20,561 nucleotides of DNA, taken from positions 1 to 20,561 of IMG/VR virus record IMGVR_UViG_3300035664_000109. The stretch is one strand, 5' to 3'. Below the pieces are notes generated by a model, which saw only the letters and a program-made list of their open reading frames with translations, did no database searches and was not told the origin of the DNA. A program made the translations under genes and the position numbers. Source of the stretch: a virus. This document shows, piece by piece, positions 1 through 6,100 of the stretch (positions are counted from its first letter, which is position 1; every line of letters starts with the position of its first letter).

Positions 1-728
1 TCAATATTATCTAGCGTTGCCTTCAGCGCCCTATCTACCTCACCTGTCATTAACGGGCAAGTTGGTTTAGCCGCGCACCACTTGCAGTGTTTGCCACTGG
101 CTAACGGTGCATCAGGTGTTTCAGACAAATCGATAGCTTTCTTAAGCGTTTTCTCAAACTCACGAATGCGTTTAGCGGTGGTTTTCCAGCGCTTAACAGA
201 CGGGGGTTGAACAATCACAAGTTCAATAGCCGCCGCGCCATCAAACACCCATTCTAGCCCTTTTGTACGCATAGCGGCGGCGGCGTAGAACATGAGCTGC
301 TCGTTTTCTTCCACTTCCACGCTAACGCCACTGCCAAATTTCCAGTCAAGAATAACAGCGCGGTCGCCTAATCTGCCAATAAGGTCAACGCTACCAAACA
401 CGTCAGGCAAGAAATCACCGTAGCTTACGTTAGCTTCGACGGTAAACTCCATCGATTTAGAAGGGTCAATTTCATCAAGCGCCGCCAGCGCCGGTTCAAT
501 CTTTTCCTTTGCCAACTCAGTTGTCATATCAATACCTGCATACGACAAACTGTAAATGTTAAAGTTATCCTCAGTGAGTAGTTTTTCCATTGCAAGGTGG
601 CAAAGCGTCCCTTCATCGGCATACGATGATGATGGTTTAGGTGGCATTTGTTGCACCAGCTTAACACTGGCAGGACACGCGATAACTCGTTTGGCGGTGC
701 TACCGCCGGCAATACTTGAATGGCTCAT
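1..728 (-). CDS. RecB/Cas4-like PD-(D/E)XK nuclease, DUF2800 family (3' end missing)
   Basis: This gene runs off the left edge; 242 codons are visible and no stop is reached. Seen: H44 in GTLCH, D115 in GSVDLIG, D128-W-K130 in ILDWKFG, and Q144xxxY148, which together form the RecB-family nuclease signature. Cysteines C18 and C215/C218/C224 (HCKWCAAKPTC) match the split four-cysteine Fe-S pattern of Cas4/AddB-type nucleases. Known: DUF2800 proteins sit in phage replication modules beside DUF2815 and DNA polymerase I and are presumed exonucleases in recombination or replication. The ATG at 728 is preceded by GGAG 8 bases upstream and overlaps the end of the preceding 55-aa gene, which suggests coupling. 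The length seen (242 aa) is short of the usual 350-400 aa, so roughly a third is outside the window. The family call is confident; substrate and role are inferred. Confidence 0.9.
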   Translation of the reverse strand, partial: MSHSSIAGGSTAKRVIACPASVKLVQQMPPKPSSSYADEGTLCHLAMEKLLTEDNFNIYSLSYAGIDMTTELAKEKIEPALAALDEIDPSKSMEFTVEANVSYGDFLPDVFGSVDLIGRLGDRAVILDWKFGSGVSVEVEENEQLMFYAAAAMRTKGLEWVFDGAAAIELVIVQPPSVKRWKTTAKRIREFEKTLKKAIDLSETPDAPLASGKHCKWCAAKPTCPLMTGEVDRALKATLDNI

Positions 729-867
729 TTACTGTTCTCCAATACTGTTTTAAATAATTTCTTACATGGTCCATGTCTATGTCATACCGCAGGTTTAATT
801 CGTCCATCATCTTCACTCGTGACTTCCTGCCATAGTAATAAAACTTTCTACATTTAGTTAGGGGCAT
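700..867 (-). CDS. Small basic protein, 55 aa, unknown function
   Basis: The ATG at 867 follows GGAGA with a good spacing (TTGGAGAAACAAAATG); a longer reading from 885 would start before this ribosome site, so 867 is preferred. The product is rich in Lys, Arg and Tyr (MPLTKCRKFYYYGRKSR at the N terminus) with a likely short helix after it; no domain is recognised. It overlaps the preceding gene by 14 bases and the nuclease gene by 29 bases, so it lies inside a tightly coupled leftward early operon. The basic N terminus would suit nucleic-acid binding, but that is only a guess. It could also be a leader serving translation of the nuclease gene. Confidence 0.6.
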   Translation of the reverse strand: MPLTKCRKFYYYGRKSRVKMMDELNLRYDIDMDHVRNYLKQYWRTVNEPFKYCRR

Positions 868-1081
868 TTTGTTTCTCCAATACAATATCAGTTAACATAT
901 CAACTACATCAATCAGTTCGTCAATAACATGGTCTGGTACGTTTGCGTTATTTTGAAAAACAACAACTTCTAAACTGGACAGCATTTTAAGTATTCGCAA
1001 TGCTTGTTCCTTATTCATTACATTTCCTTTTATTTCACGGTTCTCTTTACTTATTTCTTCTTCGTACAAATCATTTACCAT
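854..1081 (-). CDS. Small acidic protein, 75 aa, unknown function
   Basis: Two starts are possible. ATG 1081 has GGAG 8 bases upstream and overlaps the stop of the preceding gene; ATG 1018 has AAGGAA upstream and would give 54 aa beginning MNKEQALRILKML. The longer form is given because of the coupled overlap, but the region between the two starts is charged and low in complexity (LYEEEISKENREIK), so the shorter form may be the conserved core or both may be made. The core is helical and acidic, ending in an Asp/Val/Leu-rich helix (VIDELIDVVDMLTDIVLE). No family is recognised. Confidence 0.62.
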   Translation of the reverse strand: MVNDLYEEEISKENREIKGNVMNKEQALRILKMLSSLEVVVFQNNANVPDHVIDELIDVVDMLTDIVLEKQNAPN

Positions 1082-1236
1082 CTTATTGCTCCTATTCTTT
1101 TTAGTGCCGCACGGACTTTATAAGGGCGTTCTTTTCTATATGTGTGCATCATAGTCATATCTCTAGTAAACATCGCGTATTTAAAACTGCGCCAGTTTAC
1201 ATCGTAGCGATTGAATCCTCTTTGGCGTACTCTCAT
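1075..1236 (-). CDS. Small very basic protein, 53 aa, first gene of leftward operon
   Basis: The ATG at 1236 is preceded by GGTGGAG 3-4 bases upstream. The 53-residue product begins MRVRQRGFNRYDVNWRSF and carries many Arg/Lys residues plus a Met cluster (RDMTMMHTYRKERP). Its TAA stop overlaps the start of the next gene by 7 bases, and the GGAG that serves that next gene lies in its last codons. It is the promoter-proximal gene of the leftward arm, facing the VRR-NUC gene across the short divergent control region. No domain is recognised; the basic composition would suit nucleic-acid contact, but this is speculation. Confidence 0.6.
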   Translation of the reverse strand: MRVRQRGFNRYDVNWRSFKYAMFTRDMTMMHTYRKERPYKVRAALKRIGAIRW

Positions 1237-1267
1237 GACTCCACCTCTAATTGTTTAATGAGATTGC

Positions 1268-1296
1268 AGTATATCAAAAAAAGTTTGCAAAGAAAA
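1268..1296 (-). promoter_or_regulatory. Candidate sigma70-like promoter, leftward
   Basis: On the minus strand a good -10 box, TATACT (1273-1268), sits 25-30 bases ahead of the 53-aa gene's ribosome site. The hexamer 17 bp upstream (1296-1291, TTTTCT) is a poor -35 box, so the promoter would need activation or lies in slightly different register. It overlaps the direct repeats. Confidence 0.3.
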
Positions 1297-1304
1297 GTTT
1301 GCAA
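1279..1304. repeat. Tandem 12-bp direct repeats plus inverted half-site (candidate operator)
   Basis: AAAAGTTTGCAA occurs at 1279-1290 and again at 1293-1304, a 14-bp step. An inverted copy of the core, AAACTTT, follows at 1309-1315, so 1294-1300 and 1309-1315 also form a 7-bp inverted repeat around an 8-base centre. The repeats lie between the two divergent start codons and overlap the likely promoter boxes, which is the expected place for an operator. The binding protein is unknown. Confidence 0.5.
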
Positions 1305-1313
1305 TGATAAACT
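1285..1313 (+). promoter_or_regulatory. Candidate sigma70-like promoter, rightward
   Basis: TTGCAA at 1285-1290 (4 of 6 matches to the -35 consensus) is separated by 17 bp from TAAACT at 1308-1313 (4 of 6 matches to the -10 consensus). A start about 7 bases after the -10 box would fall on or next to the ATG at 1320, implying a leaderless message for the VRR-NUC gene. Both boxes are partly made of the direct-repeat sequence, so a protein bound there would block it. The match is weak. Confidence 0.3.
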
Positions 1314-1319
1314 TTAGTC

Positions 1320-1595
1320 ATGTTAGAAAAAGACATTGAAAAATACTTACTAAAAGTCGTCAAAGAAATGGACGGCAAATCGTATAAGTTCACCTCCCCT
1401 GCTTGTCGGGGAGTGGCAGATAGAATCGTGTGTTTACCTAATGGCAGTACATGGTTTATTGAGCTTAAAACCGCAGGTGGCAAGCTGTCAGCACTGCAAA
1501 AAGTTTTTGCATCAGACATGGGCAAACTTAATCAAAAGTACGCTTGTCTTTGGAGCAAAGAAGATATTAACAACTGGAGAGAGAATAATGATTGA
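1320..1595 (+). CDS. VRR-NUC domain nuclease, 91 aa
   Basis: The whole protein is one VRR-NUC (PD-(D/E)XK superfamily) domain. Seen: the N-terminal helix MLEKDIEKYLLK, the conserved YKFTSP, then GVADRIV with catalytic D34, FIELK giving E48-x-K50, a following GGKLSALQ with Q60, and a C-terminal LWSKEDI strand/helix. Ala33 replaces the more usual Pro before D34. Known: single-domain VRR-NUC proteins of phages are structure-selective endonuclease candidates that travel with SNF2 helicases. The ATG at 1320 is chosen because the family's N terminus starts exactly here, although no ribosome site is visible upstream. It is the first gene of the rightward operon and overlaps the next gene by 8 bases. 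Confidence 0.9.
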   Translation: MLEKDIEKYLLKVVKEMDGKSYKFTSPACRGVADRIVCLPNGSTWFIELKTAGGKLSALQKVFASDMGKLNQKYACLWSKEDINNWRENND

Positions 1596-1734
1596 ATTTT
1601 TACAATACCTTGATGAAAGCAATTTGGCATACCTTATTATGCTGTTTTGCTTCTTAATAATGGCGCGTTTACATTTGTCAGCGCTAACTGAAATTACACG
1701 TCTGCGTAAAATCATGAAGCAGGTGATGAGATGA
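1588..1734 (+). CDS. Small single-pass membrane protein, 48 aa
   Basis: The ATG at 1588 follows GGAGAGAGAATA and overlaps the end of the VRR-NUC gene. Residues about 12-28 form a hydrophobic membrane segment (LAYLIMLFCFLIMARL) followed by a basic amphipathic helix with several Arg and Lys. The stop overlaps the next start as ATGA. By the positive-inside rule the basic C-terminal part would lie in the cytoplasm. No family is recognised. Confidence 0.6.
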   Translation: MIEFLQYLDESNLAYLIMLFCFLIMARLHLSALTEITRLRKIMKQVMR

Positions 1735-1979
1735 GCGCAACACTTGTACTTACATTATCTTTTTTAACTGTCGATACCAACATCGACAAGAAAGGTCACA
1801 CAACGAGCCATGAAACCATAGCCTACACTACGAGCGTAATTCCTTATGAATCAATGACAGCTTGTACCAATGGGCGCGAAGAATGGAATCTTGCTGTTGG
1901 TGCCTATCAGATGTCAAAGCGCCCGACAAGAATTATCACAGCAGTATGTAACGACTCAGCTACGGGAGTGGTGCAATGA
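1731..1979 (+). CDS. Hypothetical early protein, 82 aa, with shared C-terminal tail
   Basis: It starts at an ATGA overlap with the preceding gene. The N terminus (SATLVLTLSFLTVD) is short and hydrophobic, perhaps a buried strand or weak signal-like segment; the middle is Thr-rich, and C45 and C74 are the only cysteines. Residues 70-82 (TAVCNDSATGVVQ) are almost repeated at the C terminus of the next gene (TAVCNDLTTGTVQ). The last codons also supply the GGGAG ribosome site of that gene. The general form (short hydrophobic N terminus, YESMTAC, late Cys) resembles small phage proteins of unknown function. No function can be assigned. Confidence 0.65.
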   Translation: MSATLVLTLSFLTVDTNIDKKGHTTSHETIAYTTSVIPYESMTACTNGREEWNLAVGAYQMSKRPTRIITAVCNDSATGVVQ

Positions 1980-2284
1980 GATACAGCGTATGGAAAAAAG
2001 ATGGCACCAATGAATACGTTTGCGGTACATACACATACCATTATTTTACAGATAGCTTTAGCGTAAGCTATATCAAAGAAGATAAAAATATAGATGAGTG
2101 GGCATGGTTTGAATTTAAAACTTATTCAGACGATATTAATTTTGGAAGCTATAAAAATATAGATAAAAATTTTGATTCATTAAAAAAATGTCATGACTAT
2201 ATTGTTGAACATCACGGTGTTAATTTAAGTTTTCCAACTAACACGGCTGTCTGCAATGACTTAACAACGGGGACAGTACAATGA
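1976..2284 (+). CDS. Hypothetical early protein, 102 aa, with shared C-terminal tail
   Basis: It starts at an ATGA overlap behind GGGAGTGGTGCA. The body is rich in Tyr, Phe, Asp, Lys and Asn (KEDKNIDEWAWFEFKTYSDD) and looks like a small soluble alpha/beta protein; the coding sequence here is clearly richer in A and T than its neighbours, which may mean a separate origin. Residues 90-102 (TAVCNDLTTGTVQ) match the tail of the preceding 82-aa protein at 10 of 13 positions. No domain is recognised. The next gene again starts at an ATGA overlap. Confidence 0.65.
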   Translation: MRYSVWKKDGTNEYVCGTYTYHYFTDSFSVSYIKEDKNIDEWAWFEFKTYSDDINFGSYKNIDKNFDSLKKCHDYIVEHHGVNLSFPTNTAVCNDLTTGTVQ

Positions 2285-2574
2285 GTTTATTAACAAAAGA
2301 ACAACTTAAAGAAATACTTTTAATTATTGAAGAAGAAGTAAATGTTGAATGGCCATGTTCTATGTTGGAAATGCTCCATAAATGGAACGAAAAACAACCG
2401 CCGCAGACGGCACGCGAAATGTATCAACGGGGGTATGCAGCGGCAGAGCGTGATTTAAATCGTGAGCCTTTGAGTGATGAAAGACTTGAGTTTTTAGTGG
2501 ATAAATATCACGGCTACCCTAAAACATTGGGGAGAGAAATAGAAAAAGCACATGGGATTGGAGTAGTAGAATGA
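2281..2574 (+). CDS. Hypothetical phage protein, 97 aa, with C-terminal HGI motif
   Basis: Helical and charged. The second half reads REPLSDERLEFLVDKYHGYP and then REIEKAHGIGVVE. The pattern PLSDE...(A/E)IE.(A/K)HGI is one I know from small phage proteins of unknown function, where it forms the C-terminal region. The Tyr- and Ala-rich AREMYQRGYAAAERD segment before it is also common in this group. It starts and ends with ATGA overlaps. The last residues GVVE loosely echo the GVVQ and GTVQ ends of the two upstream proteins, partly because the ribosome site for the next gene is encoded there. Confidence 0.65.
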   Translation: MSLLTKEQLKEILLIIEEEVNVEWPCSMLEMLHKWNEKQPPQTAREMYQRGYAAAERDLNREPLSDERLEFLVDKYHGYPKTLGREIEKAHGIGVVE

Positions 2575-2765
2575 CTGAAACAACAATAAAAAAATACTGT
2601 GAGCAATATAAAATCAGTCGCTCTGGCATGGACTATCATATTCGCCGGTCAGGTGTATTTCCAATCGGCAGTAAACGTTTCTCCGAAGCAGGCGCACCAT
2701 CATTCTTGTGGCGCGTTACCGATTTAGACGAAATCAAAGCGCTAATCAAAGGAAAGAAAAAATGA
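2571..2765 (+). CDS. Putative small DNA-binding protein, 64 aa, helix-turn-helix-like
   Basis: Residues 4-27 (TIKKYCEQYKISRSGMDYH and following IRRSG) have the helix-turn-helix spacing of small phage MerR/excisionase-like proteins: a helix, the turn around KIS, and a possible recognition helix ending in Arg-Arg. A short beta segment with a Trp (FLWRVTDLDEI) and a basic tail (IKGKKK) follow, as in winged-helix excisionase-like folds. ATGA overlaps join it to both neighbours. It is a candidate regulator for the operator-like repeats at 1279-1304, but no sequence evidence links the two. Confidence 0.55.
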   Translation: MTETTIKKYCEQYKISRSGMDYHIRRSGVFPIGSKRFSEAGAPSFLWRVTDLDEIKALIKGKKK

Positions 2766-2965
2766 AAGATGAATATAAAGGTTGGGTAGTAGCAGGGGTA
2801 TTCTTTATAGCGTTACTTATTGCACAGGTAACAAACTATGTGGATAACAAACACAAGCAAACAATAATCAAGACAAACATCGGTGAGTTCATGCTACGAG
2901 ACGGTAAGATGTATGGGGTATATGAGTTAACCCGCGATGTGCAAGGTAATATGGTAGCAAAATGA
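2762..2965 (+). CDS. Small N-terminally anchored membrane protein, 67 aa
   Basis: The ATG at 2762 overlaps the previous stop as ATGA. An upstream start at 2708 would read through the preceding gene and is rejected. MKDEYKG is followed by a hydrophobic helix at about residues 8-25 (WVVAGVFFIALLIAQVTNYV) and a soluble C-terminal half of about 40 residues with a likely beta pair (IGEFMLRDGKMYGVYEL). Topology is probably N-in, C-out. No family is recognised; spanin is unlikely, as it lacks a coiled coil and is not near the lysis genes. Confidence 0.6.
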   Translation: MKDEYKGWVVAGVFFIALLIAQVTNYVDNKHKQTIIKTNIGEFMLRDGKMYGVYELTRDVQGNMVAK

Positions 2966-3096
2966 CCAAAGACGAATGCTTTAAAAGATTAGAAATGGCG
3001 CAAAAGAACAAAAAAGAATTGAAGAAAATTAAACTTCAACTCCTTAAAGAAATCGAGCAGTTAAAGTTAATGCTTCGCGCACTGGAGGAAGGCTAA
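2962..3096 (+). CDS. Small coiled-coil protein, 44 aa
   Basis: ATGA overlap with the previous gene. The product starts MTKDECFKRLEMAQKNKKEL and is one long helix with Leu/Ile at heptad-like spacing (KIKLQLLKEIEQLKLMLRALEE), so it probably forms a dimeric coiled coil. Its last codons contain GGAGGAAGG, the ribosome site for the 25-aa peptide that follows. No function is assigned. Confidence 0.55.
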   Translation: MTKDECFKRLEMAQKNKKELKKIKLQLLKEIEQLKLMLRALEEG

Positions 3097-3173
3097 TGCA
3101 AATCGATGACGTTGCGGCGCTCATGTTCTATATCGGGGTACTATTTTTAACAGGACTTTGGCTATGTCATTAG
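3096..3173 (+). CDS. Membrane micropeptide, 25 aa
   Basis: It starts at a TAATG overlap right after a near-perfect ribosome site (GGAGGAAGGC). MQIDDVAALM is followed by a hydrophobic helix FYIGVLFLTGLWLC. The strong ribosome site and the fit between stop and start on both sides are the evidence that it is translated; the length alone would not be convincing. The next gene starts inside it at 3164. Confidence 0.45.
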   Translation: MQIDDVAALMFYIGVLFLTGLWLCH

Positions 3174-3322
3174 TAAAACCCGTATCACCAGTGACACCTG
3201 CGCCAACAACGGTTGACTGTAAACATGACCATTGGCGCGTATATAATAGCCTTGGCTACCGCGAATGTGACCGCTGCAAAGAACGAAGACCCATTTTTAA
3301 CGATATACGGCACCAAAGATGA
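3164..3322 (+). CDS. Zinc-ribbon-like micropeptide, 52 aa
   Basis: The ATG at 3164 lies 10 bases inside the previous reading frame and the stop overlaps the next ATG (ATGA). After a Pro/Thr/Val-rich N terminus, C19-x-H21 is followed by YRECDRC (C35-x2-C38), a spacing suited to binding one zinc ion. A basic KERRP tail follows. Such C-x-H...C-x2-C peptides are common among small phage proteins and may bind nucleic acid or a host protein. No visible strong ribosome site precedes it, so translation is probably coupled. Confidence 0.55.
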   Translation: MSLVKPVSPVTPAPTTVDCKHDHWRVYNSLGYRECDRCKERRPIFNDIRHQR

Positions 3323-3558
3323 ACAACATTTCACAGATATTCATAGGGCTTAGCCCTTTTTTAAAAGACAGATTTACAAGCGAAGTATTTACGCTTGGGC
3401 TTATTAACGAGCTTAACGAGCAACGGTTCCGCGCAAGATGCCGGCGCTTGGTACGTCAGCACAACGGCGAAACGCGCAAGCTATATAAAGCGCTAAACAA
3501 CTTGACGATGGACGACAGATTACGATTCTTTGACGTGGTAAGTGGAAATGAAAGATAA
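3319..3558 (+). CDS. Hypothetical basic helical protein, 79 aa
   Basis: Joined to the previous gene by ATGA. The N-terminal MNNISQIFIGLSPFLKDRF is followed by an Arg-rich helical middle (EQRFRARCRRLVRQHNGETRK) and a short acidic/hydrophobic end. The Arg-rich helix suggests nucleic-acid or nucleoprotein contact. It overlaps the HNH-like gene by 11 bases. No family is recognised. Confidence 0.6.
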   Translation: MNNISQIFIGLSPFLKDRFTSEVFTLGLINELNEQRFRARCRRLVRQHNGETRKLYKALNNLTMDDRLRFFDVVSGNER

Positions 3559-4132
3559 AGATTTAGAGATTATTCGAAGCGCGATACGATACAACAGTAA
3601 CACCGGACACTTCTTCAAAGGCGACGCAAATACGCCTGCCGCGCTTAACTGGAAAAACAAAAATGCCACCATTAACGTCAAGAAAAGTGGTATGCACTCC
3701 TATTTTCTAGCGTGGAAGATTGCCGTGTTTTTAGCTTATGGATGGTATCCAGAGCATACTGACGCAGTAGAGTATTTAGACGGCAACCCGTGCAACCTGA
3801 GCATTAGCAACATCAAGGTTATTAAAGCAGGCGAAGATGAGATGACCATGATTGACTTTTGCGACGAAAACGATTTGCGCTACCCTAGCGTGTCAGCGCT
3901 CATGCGCGGAGAACCGTTTATTCGTCGAATAGAAAATGGATACTCTCGCGCGTATTTTCGTAAAAGTTTACTGGAAGCAAACTGCGCTAAATTGATGGCT
4001 AAAAAACAACGTGACGAAGAAACCAGAAGCAAACCTAAACGTCCAATGGGCAGGCGACGTAATCAGCATTTTATGGAATTTCTAAGAACGCACTATTTAG
4101 TGCCTAAACGTTGGGAGATGACATTATGTTAA
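3548..4132 (+). CDS. HNH-endonuclease-like protein, catalytic residues lost, 194 aa
   Basis: Start taken as ATG 3548; a GTG at 3542 would add two residues. Residues 8-24 (IIRSAIRYNSNTGHFFK) match the N-terminal 'YDPETGxFxW' part of phage HNH proteins; residues 54-68 (LAWKIAVFLAYGWYP) match the 'HRLAWxxVxGxWP' part; residues 74-89 (VEYLDGNPCNLSISNI) align with 'IDHINGxxxDNRIxNL'. The normally invariant Asp-His is E75-Y76, and the His before LAW is Tyr/Phe, so the metal site appears lost. After about residue 95 there is a second helical region and a very basic tail (SKPKRPMGRRRNQH). I infer a DNA-binding protein derived from an HNH endonuclease. The domain match is moderate. Confidence 0.6.
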   Translation: MKDKDLEIIRSAIRYNSNTGHFFKGDANTPAALNWKNKNATINVKKSGMHSYFLAWKIAVFLAYGWYPEHTDAVEYLDGNPCNLSISNIKVIKAGEDEMTMIDFCDENDLRYPSVSALMRGEPFIRRIENGYSRAYFRKSLLEANCAKLMAKKQRDEETRSKPKRPMGRRRNQHFMEFLRTHYLVPKRWEMTLC

Positions 4133-4365
4133 GAGGTGACAGTGTACATGAGAGCGATAGTGTAAACGCGCCAGCACATTATCAAGGCGACAAGATGCAG
4201 TGCATCGACGCGATGGAAGCAATGCTTACGCAAGATGAGTTTCGTGGGTATCTGCGCGGTAATGTTTTTAAGTATCAATGGCGCTTTAGAGAAAAAGGCG
4301 GTGTTGAAGATTTACGCAAAGCAAGATGGTATTTAGACAGACTAATCAAATTGGAGAATTTCTAA
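4126..4365 (+). CDS. DUF3310 protein (phage nucleotide kinase-like), 79 aa
   Basis: The ATG at 4126 follows GGGAGATGACATT; an in-frame TTG at 4111 is less likely. Residues 12-20 (SVNAPAHYQ) with CIDAMEAM, then GYLRGNVFKYQWRF, EKGG-VEDLRKARWYLDRLI give the complete DUF3310 pattern: NxPxHY, ECI-like helix, GNxxKYxxR, and EDLxKAxWYL. Known: the family includes T7 gene 1.7, reported as a nucleotide kinase, and is common in phage replication regions. This protein is a minimal version of that domain. It overlaps the preceding gene by 7 bases and the following one by 1 base. Confidence 0.85.
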   Translation: MLRGDSVHESDSVNAPAHYQGDKMQCIDAMEAMLTQDEFRGYLRGNVFKYQWRFREKGGVEDLRKARWYLDRLIKLENF

Positions 4366-4526
4366 TGTACGCATTTAAAGGTTACCCAGTAGACCAAGAC
4401 CCAACTATCAAAGCGCTACGCGATGATGATATGGAAAACTACATGAATTTGCTCAAATGGCTAGACACTGTGCCGTTTATCCCCCTGAAGGTAAGCGACA
4501 TTGTGTTGCCTTGGCGGGATAGATGA
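4365..4526 (+). CDS. Hypothetical protein, 53 aa
   Basis: The ATG at 4365 overlaps the DUF3310 stop (TAATG) and is preceded by TTGGAGAATTTC. A longer reading from 4326 lies inside the DUF3310 gene and is rejected. The protein begins MYAFKGYPVDQDPTIKALRD and ends in a Trp/Pro-rich segment. No domain is recognised. It ends in an ATGA overlap. Confidence 0.6.
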   Translation: MYAFKGYPVDQDPTIKALRDDDMENYMNLLKWLDTVPFIPLKVSDIVLPWRDR

Positions 4527-4933
4527 AGCCAAAGCTCAAAACGATGAATGGGGTATGGATATGTTATACCCCCTGCTGCACCATCCCAATGATGGCAGAC
4601 CACCCACAAACGGCGTATTTAAGATGGAAATTTATCAATGCTAAGACCCAATCAGATAGAAGCTGTTGCCTTTTTGAGCCTAATAGACAAGGGCATGATT
4701 CTCGCCCCAGTGGGGGCAGGCAAAACAGCGATAACGCTAACCGCCATGCAGCAGGCGCTCGACACGGGCAGAGTACGCCGGTTCTTAGTGATAGCGCCAA
4801 AGCGTGTTTGCACGGACGTGTGGACGATAGAGCCGGCCAAGTGGGCGCCAAATCTTACGATATCTATAGCCGTTGGCTCGTTAGCGCAAAGATTGACAGC
4901 ATTCGACGCGCCGTCACAGGTAGTGGTGACTAA
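4523..4933 (+). CDS. Small protein whose open frame runs on inside the helicase gene
   Basis: The start overlaps the previous stop (ATGA at 4523). Residues 1-39 (MKPKLKTMNGVWICYTP ... HPQTAYLRWKF) resemble a small phage protein type with a 'K-NGVWxC' strand and a 'TPxxAYxxW' helix, normally about 40 residues. Here no stop follows: the frame continues to 4933, 296 bases into the helicase gene in another frame, and the added 97 residues are low in hydrophobics and rich in Ser/Arg/Asn/Gly, as expected of an out-of-frame shadow. Either the C-terminal part is passive overprinting or the stop was lost to a mutation or indel near 4600-4640. The N-terminal part is more believable than the full length. 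Confidence 0.4.
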   Translation: MKPKLKTMNGVWICYTPCCTIPMMADHPQTAYLRWKFINAKTQSDRSCCLFEPNRQGHDSRPSGGRQNSDNANRHAAGARHGQSTPVLSDSAKACLHGRVDDRAGQVGAKSYDIYSRWLVSAKIDSIRRAVTGSGD

Positions 4934-5924
4934 TTACGATACGCTGCAAACAACGCCTCCGCTAATAGGATTTGATGGTATTGTGTTTGACGAGTTGACG
5001 GTGCTAAAGAACCCATCAGGCAAACGTTTTAAAGCGCTGTTTGGGGCAATCAAAGACTTTAAAGTTAAGTGGGGGCTTACCGGCTCGTTTACCAGCAACG
5101 GACTTGAGGACGTGTTTGGGCAATGCAAGATAGTGGACACAGCGCTACTTGGAAAATCTAAGACCGCCTTTCTTCAAACGTATTTTGTGCTTCTTAACAA
5201 AGACTTTGGTGAATGGGTAGCTAAGTCCACTTCACTGCGTGACGTGATGGCGGTAATTAAGCCTGCAACGTACCTTATCGACACGCAAGAGTATATGGAT
5301 ACTTTACCCCCGCTTAACGTTGTGCCGGTCAAATGCGCAATGGATATGAAGCAGTACAAAGAGATGAAGAAAGACTTTGTAGTGTATTACGAAGAAAAAG
5401 AAATCATAGCGGTTAACGCCGCTGTGGTGGTGAACAAACTGCAACAAATGGCCAGCGGGTTTTCGTATATTGAAGGACACCCTACGACTTGGTTTTCGCG
5501 GCACAAGTTTGACCGTCTTGATGAAATACTGGCAGAAAACCAACACGCCAATACGATTATTGTGTACAACTTTCAAGCAGAGCTTGAAGAACTTAAACGC
5601 CGATACCCTAATGCGCGGACAATTGACCAGCAAGGTGTTATCTCATCGTGGAACGCAGGGCGAGTGGAATTACTGCTCGTTCACCCTAAATCAGCAGGGC
5701 ATGGGCTTAACCTTCAATTTGGCGGCAGTAAAATGGTGTTCCTGTCGCTTCCTTGGTCACTTGATAGATATGAGCAGACCATTGGACGTTTGCACCGTAG
5801 TGGACAAAAGAATGCGGTATATTGCTATGTACTGCTAACAGACAAAACCGTAGACGAGCGCATATTCGCAAGTCTGCATGACAAACGCGCAATTTCAGAT
5901 ATTGCCTTAGAGGAATTAAAATGA
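4638..5924 (+). CDS. SNF2-like superfamily 2 DNA helicase/translocase, 428 aa
   Basis: All main SF2 motifs are seen in order: Q-like region LRPNQIEAV (2-10), Walker A APVGAGKT (23-30), motif Ia VIAPKRV (51-57), motif II FDELT (117-121), motif III LTGSFTSNG (147-155), motif V HPKSAGHGLNLQ (349-360) and motif VI QTIGRLHRSGQ (380-390) with the arginine fingers. Unusual points are DELT for the DEAH box and GSFTSN where most have GTPxxN. The length and lack of inserts match small phage SNF2 proteins found with VRR-NUC and DUF2800. Predicted role: ATP-dependent DNA translocation in replication or recombination. The start is 'MLRPNQ', exactly where the family begins; the ribosome site is weak, so coupling to the upstream frame is likely. 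Confidence 0.93.
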   Translation: MLRPNQIEAVAFLSLIDKGMILAPVGAGKTAITLTAMQQALDTGRVRRFLVIAPKRVCTDVWTIEPAKWAPNLTISIAVGSLAQRLTAFDAPSQVVVTNYDTLQTTPPLIGFDGIVFDELTVLKNPSGKRFKALFGAIKDFKVKWGLTGSFTSNGLEDVFGQCKIVDTALLGKSKTAFLQTYFVLLNKDFGEWVAKSTSLRDVMAVIKPATYLIDTQEYMDTLPPLNVVPVKCAMDMKQYKEMKKDFVVYYEEKEIIAVNAAVVVNKLQQMASGFSYIEGHPTTWFSRHKFDRLDEILAENQHANTIIVYNFQAELEELKRRYPNARTIDQQGVISSWNAGRVELLLVHPKSAGHGLNLQFGGSKMVFLSLPWSLDRYEQTIGRLHRSGQKNAVYCYVLLTDKTVDERIFASLHDKRAISDIALEELK

Positions 5925-6100
5925 ACAACTTAACATGGCGCGACATCTTCTTTAATTTGAATAATTACACAGAAGATGAATTACAGGGGATGATTGAGTC
6001 AGAGCGTCACGGTAAACGTAGACGCTCTATTTTGGTACGTTTGCATCAGCGCTACTGCATACTCCGCGCTAACCGTGAGCGTGAAGAAATACTTGCTTAA
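5921..6100 (+). CDS. Hypothetical basic protein, 59 aa, last rightward gene
   Basis: Starts at an ATGA overlap with the helicase gene. LTWRDIFFNLNNYTEDEL forms a possible helix-loop, and the second half is strongly basic and helical (GKRRRSILVRLHQRYCILRANRERE). The start at the end of the helicase gene and the stop lying exactly against the end of the opposite operon make it a real gene despite its size. No family name can be given; it may be a helicase partner by position. Confidence 0.6.
   Translation: MNNLTWRDIFFNLNNYTEDELQGMIESERHGKRRRSILVRLHQRYCILRANREREEILA

Follow-up and report, generated by a model that had tools for sequence, protein, structure and literature searches.

The 83-bp gap at positions 1237-1319 of an uncultured virus record is, as judged from its sequence and that of its relatives, probably a divergent promoter region of the type used by host RNA polymerase, having a left arm led by a Shine-Dalgarno sequence, a right arm whose message would be leaderless, and two direct repeats which probably form a protein site. 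The window, meaning the whole stretch of DNA analyzed here, is the 20,561-base record. The gap would start both replication arms of an uncultured group of 37-kb podovirus-like phages. The leftward mRNA would be of the usual kind, with a Shine-Dalgarno sequence in a leader of about 25 nt, and would carry a small ORF followed by the DUF2800 exonuclease, PolA and primase, and in the rightward direction a leaderless mRNA would begin at the AUG of a VRR-NUC-like endonuclease and continue towards the SNF2 helicase. In the lineage of the window the repeats, forming the rightward -35 and spacer, would make up a probable sequence-specific protein site touching both promoters.

Gene order around the gap

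The gap lies between a leftward ORF of 53 aa (1075-1236, minus strand) and the rightward gene of the VRR-NUC-like endonuclease of 91 aa (1320-1595, plus strand). Its extent, the positions of both 12-bp repeats and that of a half-site at 1309-1315 had been given correctly in the original prediction. The DUF2800 PD-(D/E)XK nuclease of the left arm (3-728, minus strand; PF10926 E 4.5e-34, phrog_69; 3′ end outside the window) is separated from the gap by two small ORFs, the 53-aa one and one of 75 aa (854-1081, minus strand) which 10 of the 57 close loci share, so the direct partner of VRR-NUC across the gap is the 53-aa ORF. This first gene of the left arm gave no match in Pfam and PHROG searches, and its position can be taken by many different small ORFs. 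The first gene of the right arm matched phrog_93 (E 2.6e-24), its score against Pfam VRR_NUC (PF08774) was 13.5 bits, below the gathering cut-off of 23.8, and distant relatives of its protein bear the VRR-NUC annotation. Further along the right arm, all on the plus strand, are the genes of a 64-aa protein (2571-2765; predicted three-helix, winged-helix-like), a DUF3310 protein (4111-4365; PF11753 E 1.1e-18) and the SNF2 helicase (4638-5924; PF00176; phrog_62 E 1.2e-115). The opposite directions that had been read for DUF2800 (leftward, minus strand) and for the VRR-NUC-like and SNF2 genes (rightward, plus strand) were thus borne out by profile matches. A tRNA scan of the window found none, and of the scanned proteins of this phage none was recognised as an integrase or a repressor.

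The original prediction also held that such genes usually run together in one direction in other phages. Seven comparators picked from the match lists (MW202897, vB_SauS_phi2, MW202898, MW202496, BPP-1, Vibrio 1.017.O and Pasteurella PMP-GADVASU-IND) agree with it, since in 7/7 the SNF2 helicase is encoded on the strand that also carries the exonuclease of DUF2800 type, unlike in the window. Three of them, MW202897, BPP-1 and Vibrio 1.017.O, have the primase on the opposite strand, and the annotation of MW202496 names no VRR-NUC. The Staphylococcus phage vB_SauS_phi2 and MW202898 have replication modules of the same gene kinds (DUF2800-PolA-primase-VRR-NUC-SNF2), all on one strand, whereas in the window's group the block from DUF2800 to primase faces the other way from VRR-NUC/SNF2.

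The split layout is no peculiarity of this phage but the rule of its group. Among 412 VRR-NUC loci, DUF2800 was present in the stretch in 380, and all 380 were divergent, the other 32 having no DUF2800 in the stretch; because contigs recur between searches, a second count was made by distinct alleles, in which 240/240 alleles with DUF2800 in range were divergent, out of 258 alleles in total. Among the named phage records examined, the divergent layout was found only in Podoviridae sp. ctNMl277 (MW202483), in which the annotated VRR-NUC start is likewise without a Shine-Dalgarno sequence; its VRR-NUC is 64% identical, and its gap is of 66 bp and without the AAAAGTTTGCAA repeats seen in the window.

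In the relative G002 (37,640 bases) primase, PolA, X and DUF2800 run leftward and the genes from VRR-NUC to SNF2 run rightward. Inversion of the DUF2800-X-PolA-primase block of the one-strand order reproduces this order, which suggests how the split may have originated. The left end of the same relative carries an ArdA anti-restriction gene (L156:559-1041; Pfam E 6.3e-20). As a separate observation, the first gene of the predicted leftward promoter (window 1075-1236, L003-L059) is either DUF2800 or one of a dozen or more small ORFs unrelated to one another, and these swapped genes stand at a near-fixed offset of about 30 nt with the promoter core unchanged, as in a docking place for small genes.

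Predicted promoters and direct repeats

The predicted rightward promoter (1285-1313, plus strand) consists of the -35 TTGCAA (1285-1290), which is weak with 4/6 consensus bases, a 17-bp spacer, an extended TG (1305-1306) and the -10 TAAACT (1308-1313). This candidate -10 ends 6 nt before the VRR-NUC ATG, and the RNA is predicted to start at about 1320, which is the A of that ATG. The predicted leftward promoter (1268-1276, minus strand) has an extended TG (1276-1275), the -10 TATACT (1273-1268) and a weak -35; its RNA would start near 1261 and would carry the Shine-Dalgarno sequence AGGTGG (1241-1246, minus strand). The sites 1268-1276 are invariant in 45/45 alleles. A plain consensus scan of positions 1-6000 gave 12 promoters against 12.9 expected, with no excess, and the promoter claim therefore depends on the relatives and not on the window alone. 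Signs of T7-type promoters were not found, the exact repeat pair occurring once per record and the 20 proteins scanned giving no RNA polymerase family match; the host polymerase is therefore the likely user of these promoters. Both arms would start in the same gap, which is roughly 60-120 bp across the group. The footprint of RNA polymerase extends from about -55 to +20, so with the starts predicted at about 1261 and 1320 the footprints would overlap, and the two arms would probably compete for the gap through mutual exclusion of polymerases.

The two direct repeats are exact copies of AAAAGTTTGCAA (1279-1290 and 1293-1304, plus strand) with a spacing of 14 bp. When the gap was shuffled 20,000 times with its dinucleotides preserved, an exact direct repeat of at least 12 bp arose in 8 cases (P 0.0004), so that the pair reported by the original prediction is both real and improbable by chance; 7 of 1,024 windows of 83 bp along the sequence hold such a repeat, two of these covering the gap 1237-1319. 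The inverted half-site AAACTTT (1309-1315; AAAGTTT on the minus strand) is present where it had been predicted, but an inverted half-site of 7 bp was equalled in a quarter of the shuffles (P 0.25, tested on L016, which has identical repeats and half-site) and it is thus indistinguishable from chance. The search for AAAAGTTTGCAA elsewhere, which had been proposed as a check, gave no further exact copy, whether in the window or among 10 related records, and at up to two mismatches 6 were found window-wide against 6.64 expected, without enrichment beyond the pair. One-mismatch copies do recur, with AATAGTTTGCAA at about 0.8-1.5 kb away; the copy examined, in G002, was rejected as an extra site, being inside the DUF2800 gene. 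In the same record AAAAATTTGCAA (G002:2477) lies between converging genes.

The double repeat was found in 55 viral stretches, with one site each, always preceding VRR-NUC (position of VRR-NUC taken via the exact start pattern in 45 stretches and by eye in 10). Among the 44 gap clusters described in the next section, direct repeats at P<=0.05 are present in 6 and inverted repeats in 3. The operator-like repeats are hence not general in the phage group, most relatives being without them, and would therefore be a lineage-specific addition and not the basis of the divergent arrangement. A match to the double repeat in the Alteromonadaceae contig L202 had no VRR-NUC start and was taken as unrelated; on this contig three copies resembling AAAGTTTGCAA follow one another every 14 bp (L202:1162-1186). 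Other operator-like forms were also seen. In L060 the roughly 50 bp preceding VRR-NUC contain, as judged by eye, an inverted repeat centred on ACATGAAAAAA ... TTTTTTCATGT, and the gap clusters L223 and L224 of another branch have an 11-bp inverted repeat ACACAAAATTT, which was reached in 0/100 shuffles for each.

Repeat 1 contains the candidate rightward -35, and repeat 2 sits in the rightward -35/-10 spacer and would reach the leftward -35 region, so a protein bound there would affect both arms. This overlap with the candidate promoters of both arms, which the original prediction had pointed out, is upheld together with a strong constraint. The alignment had 58 rows, comprising the window and 57 close loci, with 45 distinct VRR-NUC alleles, and the 55 nt preceding the ATG contained 8 variable sites. 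At 1279-1303, 0/25 sites were variable in the 45 alleles against 41/91 third codon positions of VRR-NUC (Fisher 6.6e-6), and on counting also 1304, which differs in 4/45 alleles, 1/26 were variable (P 4.5e-5); with fourfold sites as the reference (8/21 variable) the contrast was smaller (P 0.0008, or 0.006 with 1304), and for repeat 2 by itself it was modest (0/11 variable at 1293-1303; 1/12 with 1304, P 0.025), all these P values being optimistic because the alleles share ancestry and are not independent.

There is a lesser but real possibility that the gap has no operator at all and that the repeat block is promoter sequence alone (A-tracts, -35 and extended -10), maintained to keep early transcription strong. 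The candidate -35 is within repeat 1, relatives without repeats retain the promoter geometry, and no regulator is assigned, which are in keeping with this explanation; the invariance, however, spans the 17-bp spacer and repeat 2 (0/25 sites), and an exact 12-bp repeat is improbable by chance. A polymerase alone demands little sequence in a promoter spacer, and the invariance of the spacer argues for a repeat-binding protein in the window's lineage. A site-specific binder of the repeats therein likely exists.

The original prediction had put forward the 64-aa protein as this binder, acting as a single phage repressor or activator on both repeats and switching both arms together. This is doubtful and in our estimate unlikely, even though the repeats overlap both promoters. 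Its AlphaFold model (mean pLDDT 82) is winged-helix-like, and Foldseek placed it weakly near MerR, BldC and excisionase proteins, none of the matches reaching E<=0.001; Pfam gave no match, and the search of solved structures gave two meaningless matches (E 0.8). The protein occurs in 47/48 loci spanning VRR-NUC to SNF2 and in 6/7 repeat-bearing records versus 0/11 other records searched, where the repeat status was read directly for the first ten records and for the others was taken from their absence in the double-repeat matches and from their gaps. Such co-occurrence is, however, common to P82, P54, P79, DUF3310 and P66, which are present in 48/48 of the same loci. Against the protein there is also the relative G007 (locus L057), which keeps both repeats unchanged while no 64-aa relative was found in its VRR-NUC-to-SNF2 arm or in the whole 25,190-bp record, which is perhaps incomplete, so that this phage may have a copy elsewhere; locus L058 likewise has no 64-aa protein within its 2,425 bases of sequence. 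The types of the protein are about 55-69% identical, yet the single DNA site beneath them is invariant. The relative without the 64-aa protein has a DUF3310 protein with an extra N-terminal stretch which is winged helix-turn-helix-like by eye (L057:8182-8649).

It is very improbable that the repeats act as the iterons of an origin placed between the replication arms; the setting among replication genes, the A+T-rich gap (30% GC) and a change in sign of the GC skew here in G002 would suit an origin, but there are two copies only, short of the three or more of iterons, most relatives are without repeats, and the GC skew was rejected as an origin sign, as it flips again near 15 kb with gene direction and so follows the coding strand.

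Predicted start of the rightward message in relatives

For the geometry of the rightward start, 183 loci with a gap of 40-130 nt were taken; 3 of them had no ATG close to the aligned start and were left out, and the remaining 180 were grouped into 44 clusters of gaps that have DUF2800 adjacent. The DUF2800 side was tested on 41 clusters, the remaining 3/44 giving no DUF2800 ATG. An ATG is present within 12 nt of the aligned VRR-NUC start in 180/183 loci, ATG having been preferred in choosing. In 29/44 clusters the best promoter has a -10 whose end is 5-8 nt away from the VRR-NUC ATG, on its 5′ side (shuffles mean 6.8, max 14, in 200 rounds), and in the control, which was the same scan before DUF2800, a -10 at 5-8 nt was seen in 2/41. 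The result holds at four levels of clustering, the other three giving 21/31, 24/34 and 44/64. The best promoter is outside 5-8 nt in 15/44 clusters, and several of the -10 hexamers are poor (TAGCAC, TAGGGG). The geometry is kept on unrelated gap sequence, as in TTGTCA-17-TATATT-6-ATG of the L283 cluster and TTGTCA-17-TATTGT-6-ATG of L076, and in G002 the VRR-NUC gene tops the leaderless-promoter scores, with 12.5, among 45 genes scanned. The predicted promoter geometry, and not the repeat, is thus the general trait of the group.

A Shine-Dalgarno match of at least 4 bases precedes VRR-NUC in 7/44 clusters, about chance (shuffles 5.3), versus 41/41 for DUF2800, and a match of at least 5 bases is found in 1/44 versus 23/41. 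In the window too the Shine-Dalgarno sequence is absent before the VRR-NUC ATG. With a -10 placed 6 bases before the ATG and no Shine-Dalgarno sequence, a leaderless mRNA is therefore predicted; the sequence has two marks of such a message, namely the -10 spacing and an AUG start lacking a Shine-Dalgarno sequence. The rightward VRR-NUC mRNA thus looks leaderless, a point which the original prediction had overlooked. Among the one-strand comparators inspected by eye, VRR-NUC has a Shine-Dalgarno sequence in L441, L442 and L447, and no clear one was seen before it in L443, L445 and L446. In the loci L391 and L395 a clear Shine-Dalgarno sequence precedes VRR-NUC. These two loci also have a possible promoter farther upstream of VRR-NUC and offer natural leadered versions to compare.

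The missing Shine-Dalgarno sequence would be meaningless if VRR-NUC were translated from a later start or by read-through, for which an in-frame ATG at codon 17 is available in the window, but this is most unlikely, as the relatives align from residue 1, an in-frame stop (1308-1310) lies shortly 5′ of the ATG, and in L441, L442 and L447 a start codon preceded by a Shine-Dalgarno sequence stands at the corresponding residue or next to it (by eye; the annotated start of L442 is further upstream).

Known systems and meaning of the arrangement

The cI mRNA of lambda is leaderless. It resembles the VRR-NUC message predicted here in being a phage message that starts at the start codon; it differs in that cI is the repressor gene of a temperate phage, whereas here the gene is that of a nuclease and the scanned proteins included no recognisable integrase or repressor. 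In a switch of the cI/cro type the operator is placed between divergent promoters, and here the constrained repeats overlap both candidate promoters; the repressor genes which flank such a switch are replaced here by the VRR-NUC-like gene and the 53-aa ORF.

Telomere phage PY54 already provides a known case of a divergent region with one operator and leaderless messages. Its immunity region immB (cI/cro, single OR3 operator) is described with leaderless mRNAs beginning at AUG by RACE, and the leaderless mRNA of lambda cI is also mentioned (PMC4488713). The likeness consists of a divergent gene pair served by a single intergenic region, one operator site per genome and leaderless mRNA, the last two being putative in our case; in PY54, however, repressor genes flank the region and neither mRNA has a leader, whereas here the flanks are a nuclease gene and a small replication-arm ORF and one arm is predicted to be leaderless, and the PY54 site is a 16-bp palindrome in place of the two direct repeats (PMC4488713). 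In the open-licence PMC literature no paper was found on a leaderless VRR-NUC, on a leaderless nuclease opposite an arm led by a Shine-Dalgarno sequence, or on this divergent module.

To our knowledge, the leaderless phage messages known so far are those of repressor genes (lambda; PY54). The sequence here predicts a leaderless message for a replication nuclease across an uncultured phage group, facing an ordinary arm with a Shine-Dalgarno sequence. We offer, as a speculation with rather low odds, that the replication genes are split between two modes of translation, with exonuclease, polymerase and primase in the Shine-Dalgarno arm and VRR-NUC and later SNF2 in the leaderless arm, so that the balance of the arms may follow the state of the host ribosomes, a protein bound to the repeats being a second control in one lineage. 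Leaderless mRNAs can be initiated by whole 70S ribosomes, and the arm balance would therefore, if this speculation is true, track the host ribosome state during infection. If measurement bears it out, the two arms would be a natural pair for testing how a phage sets the balance between two operons through the start of translation.
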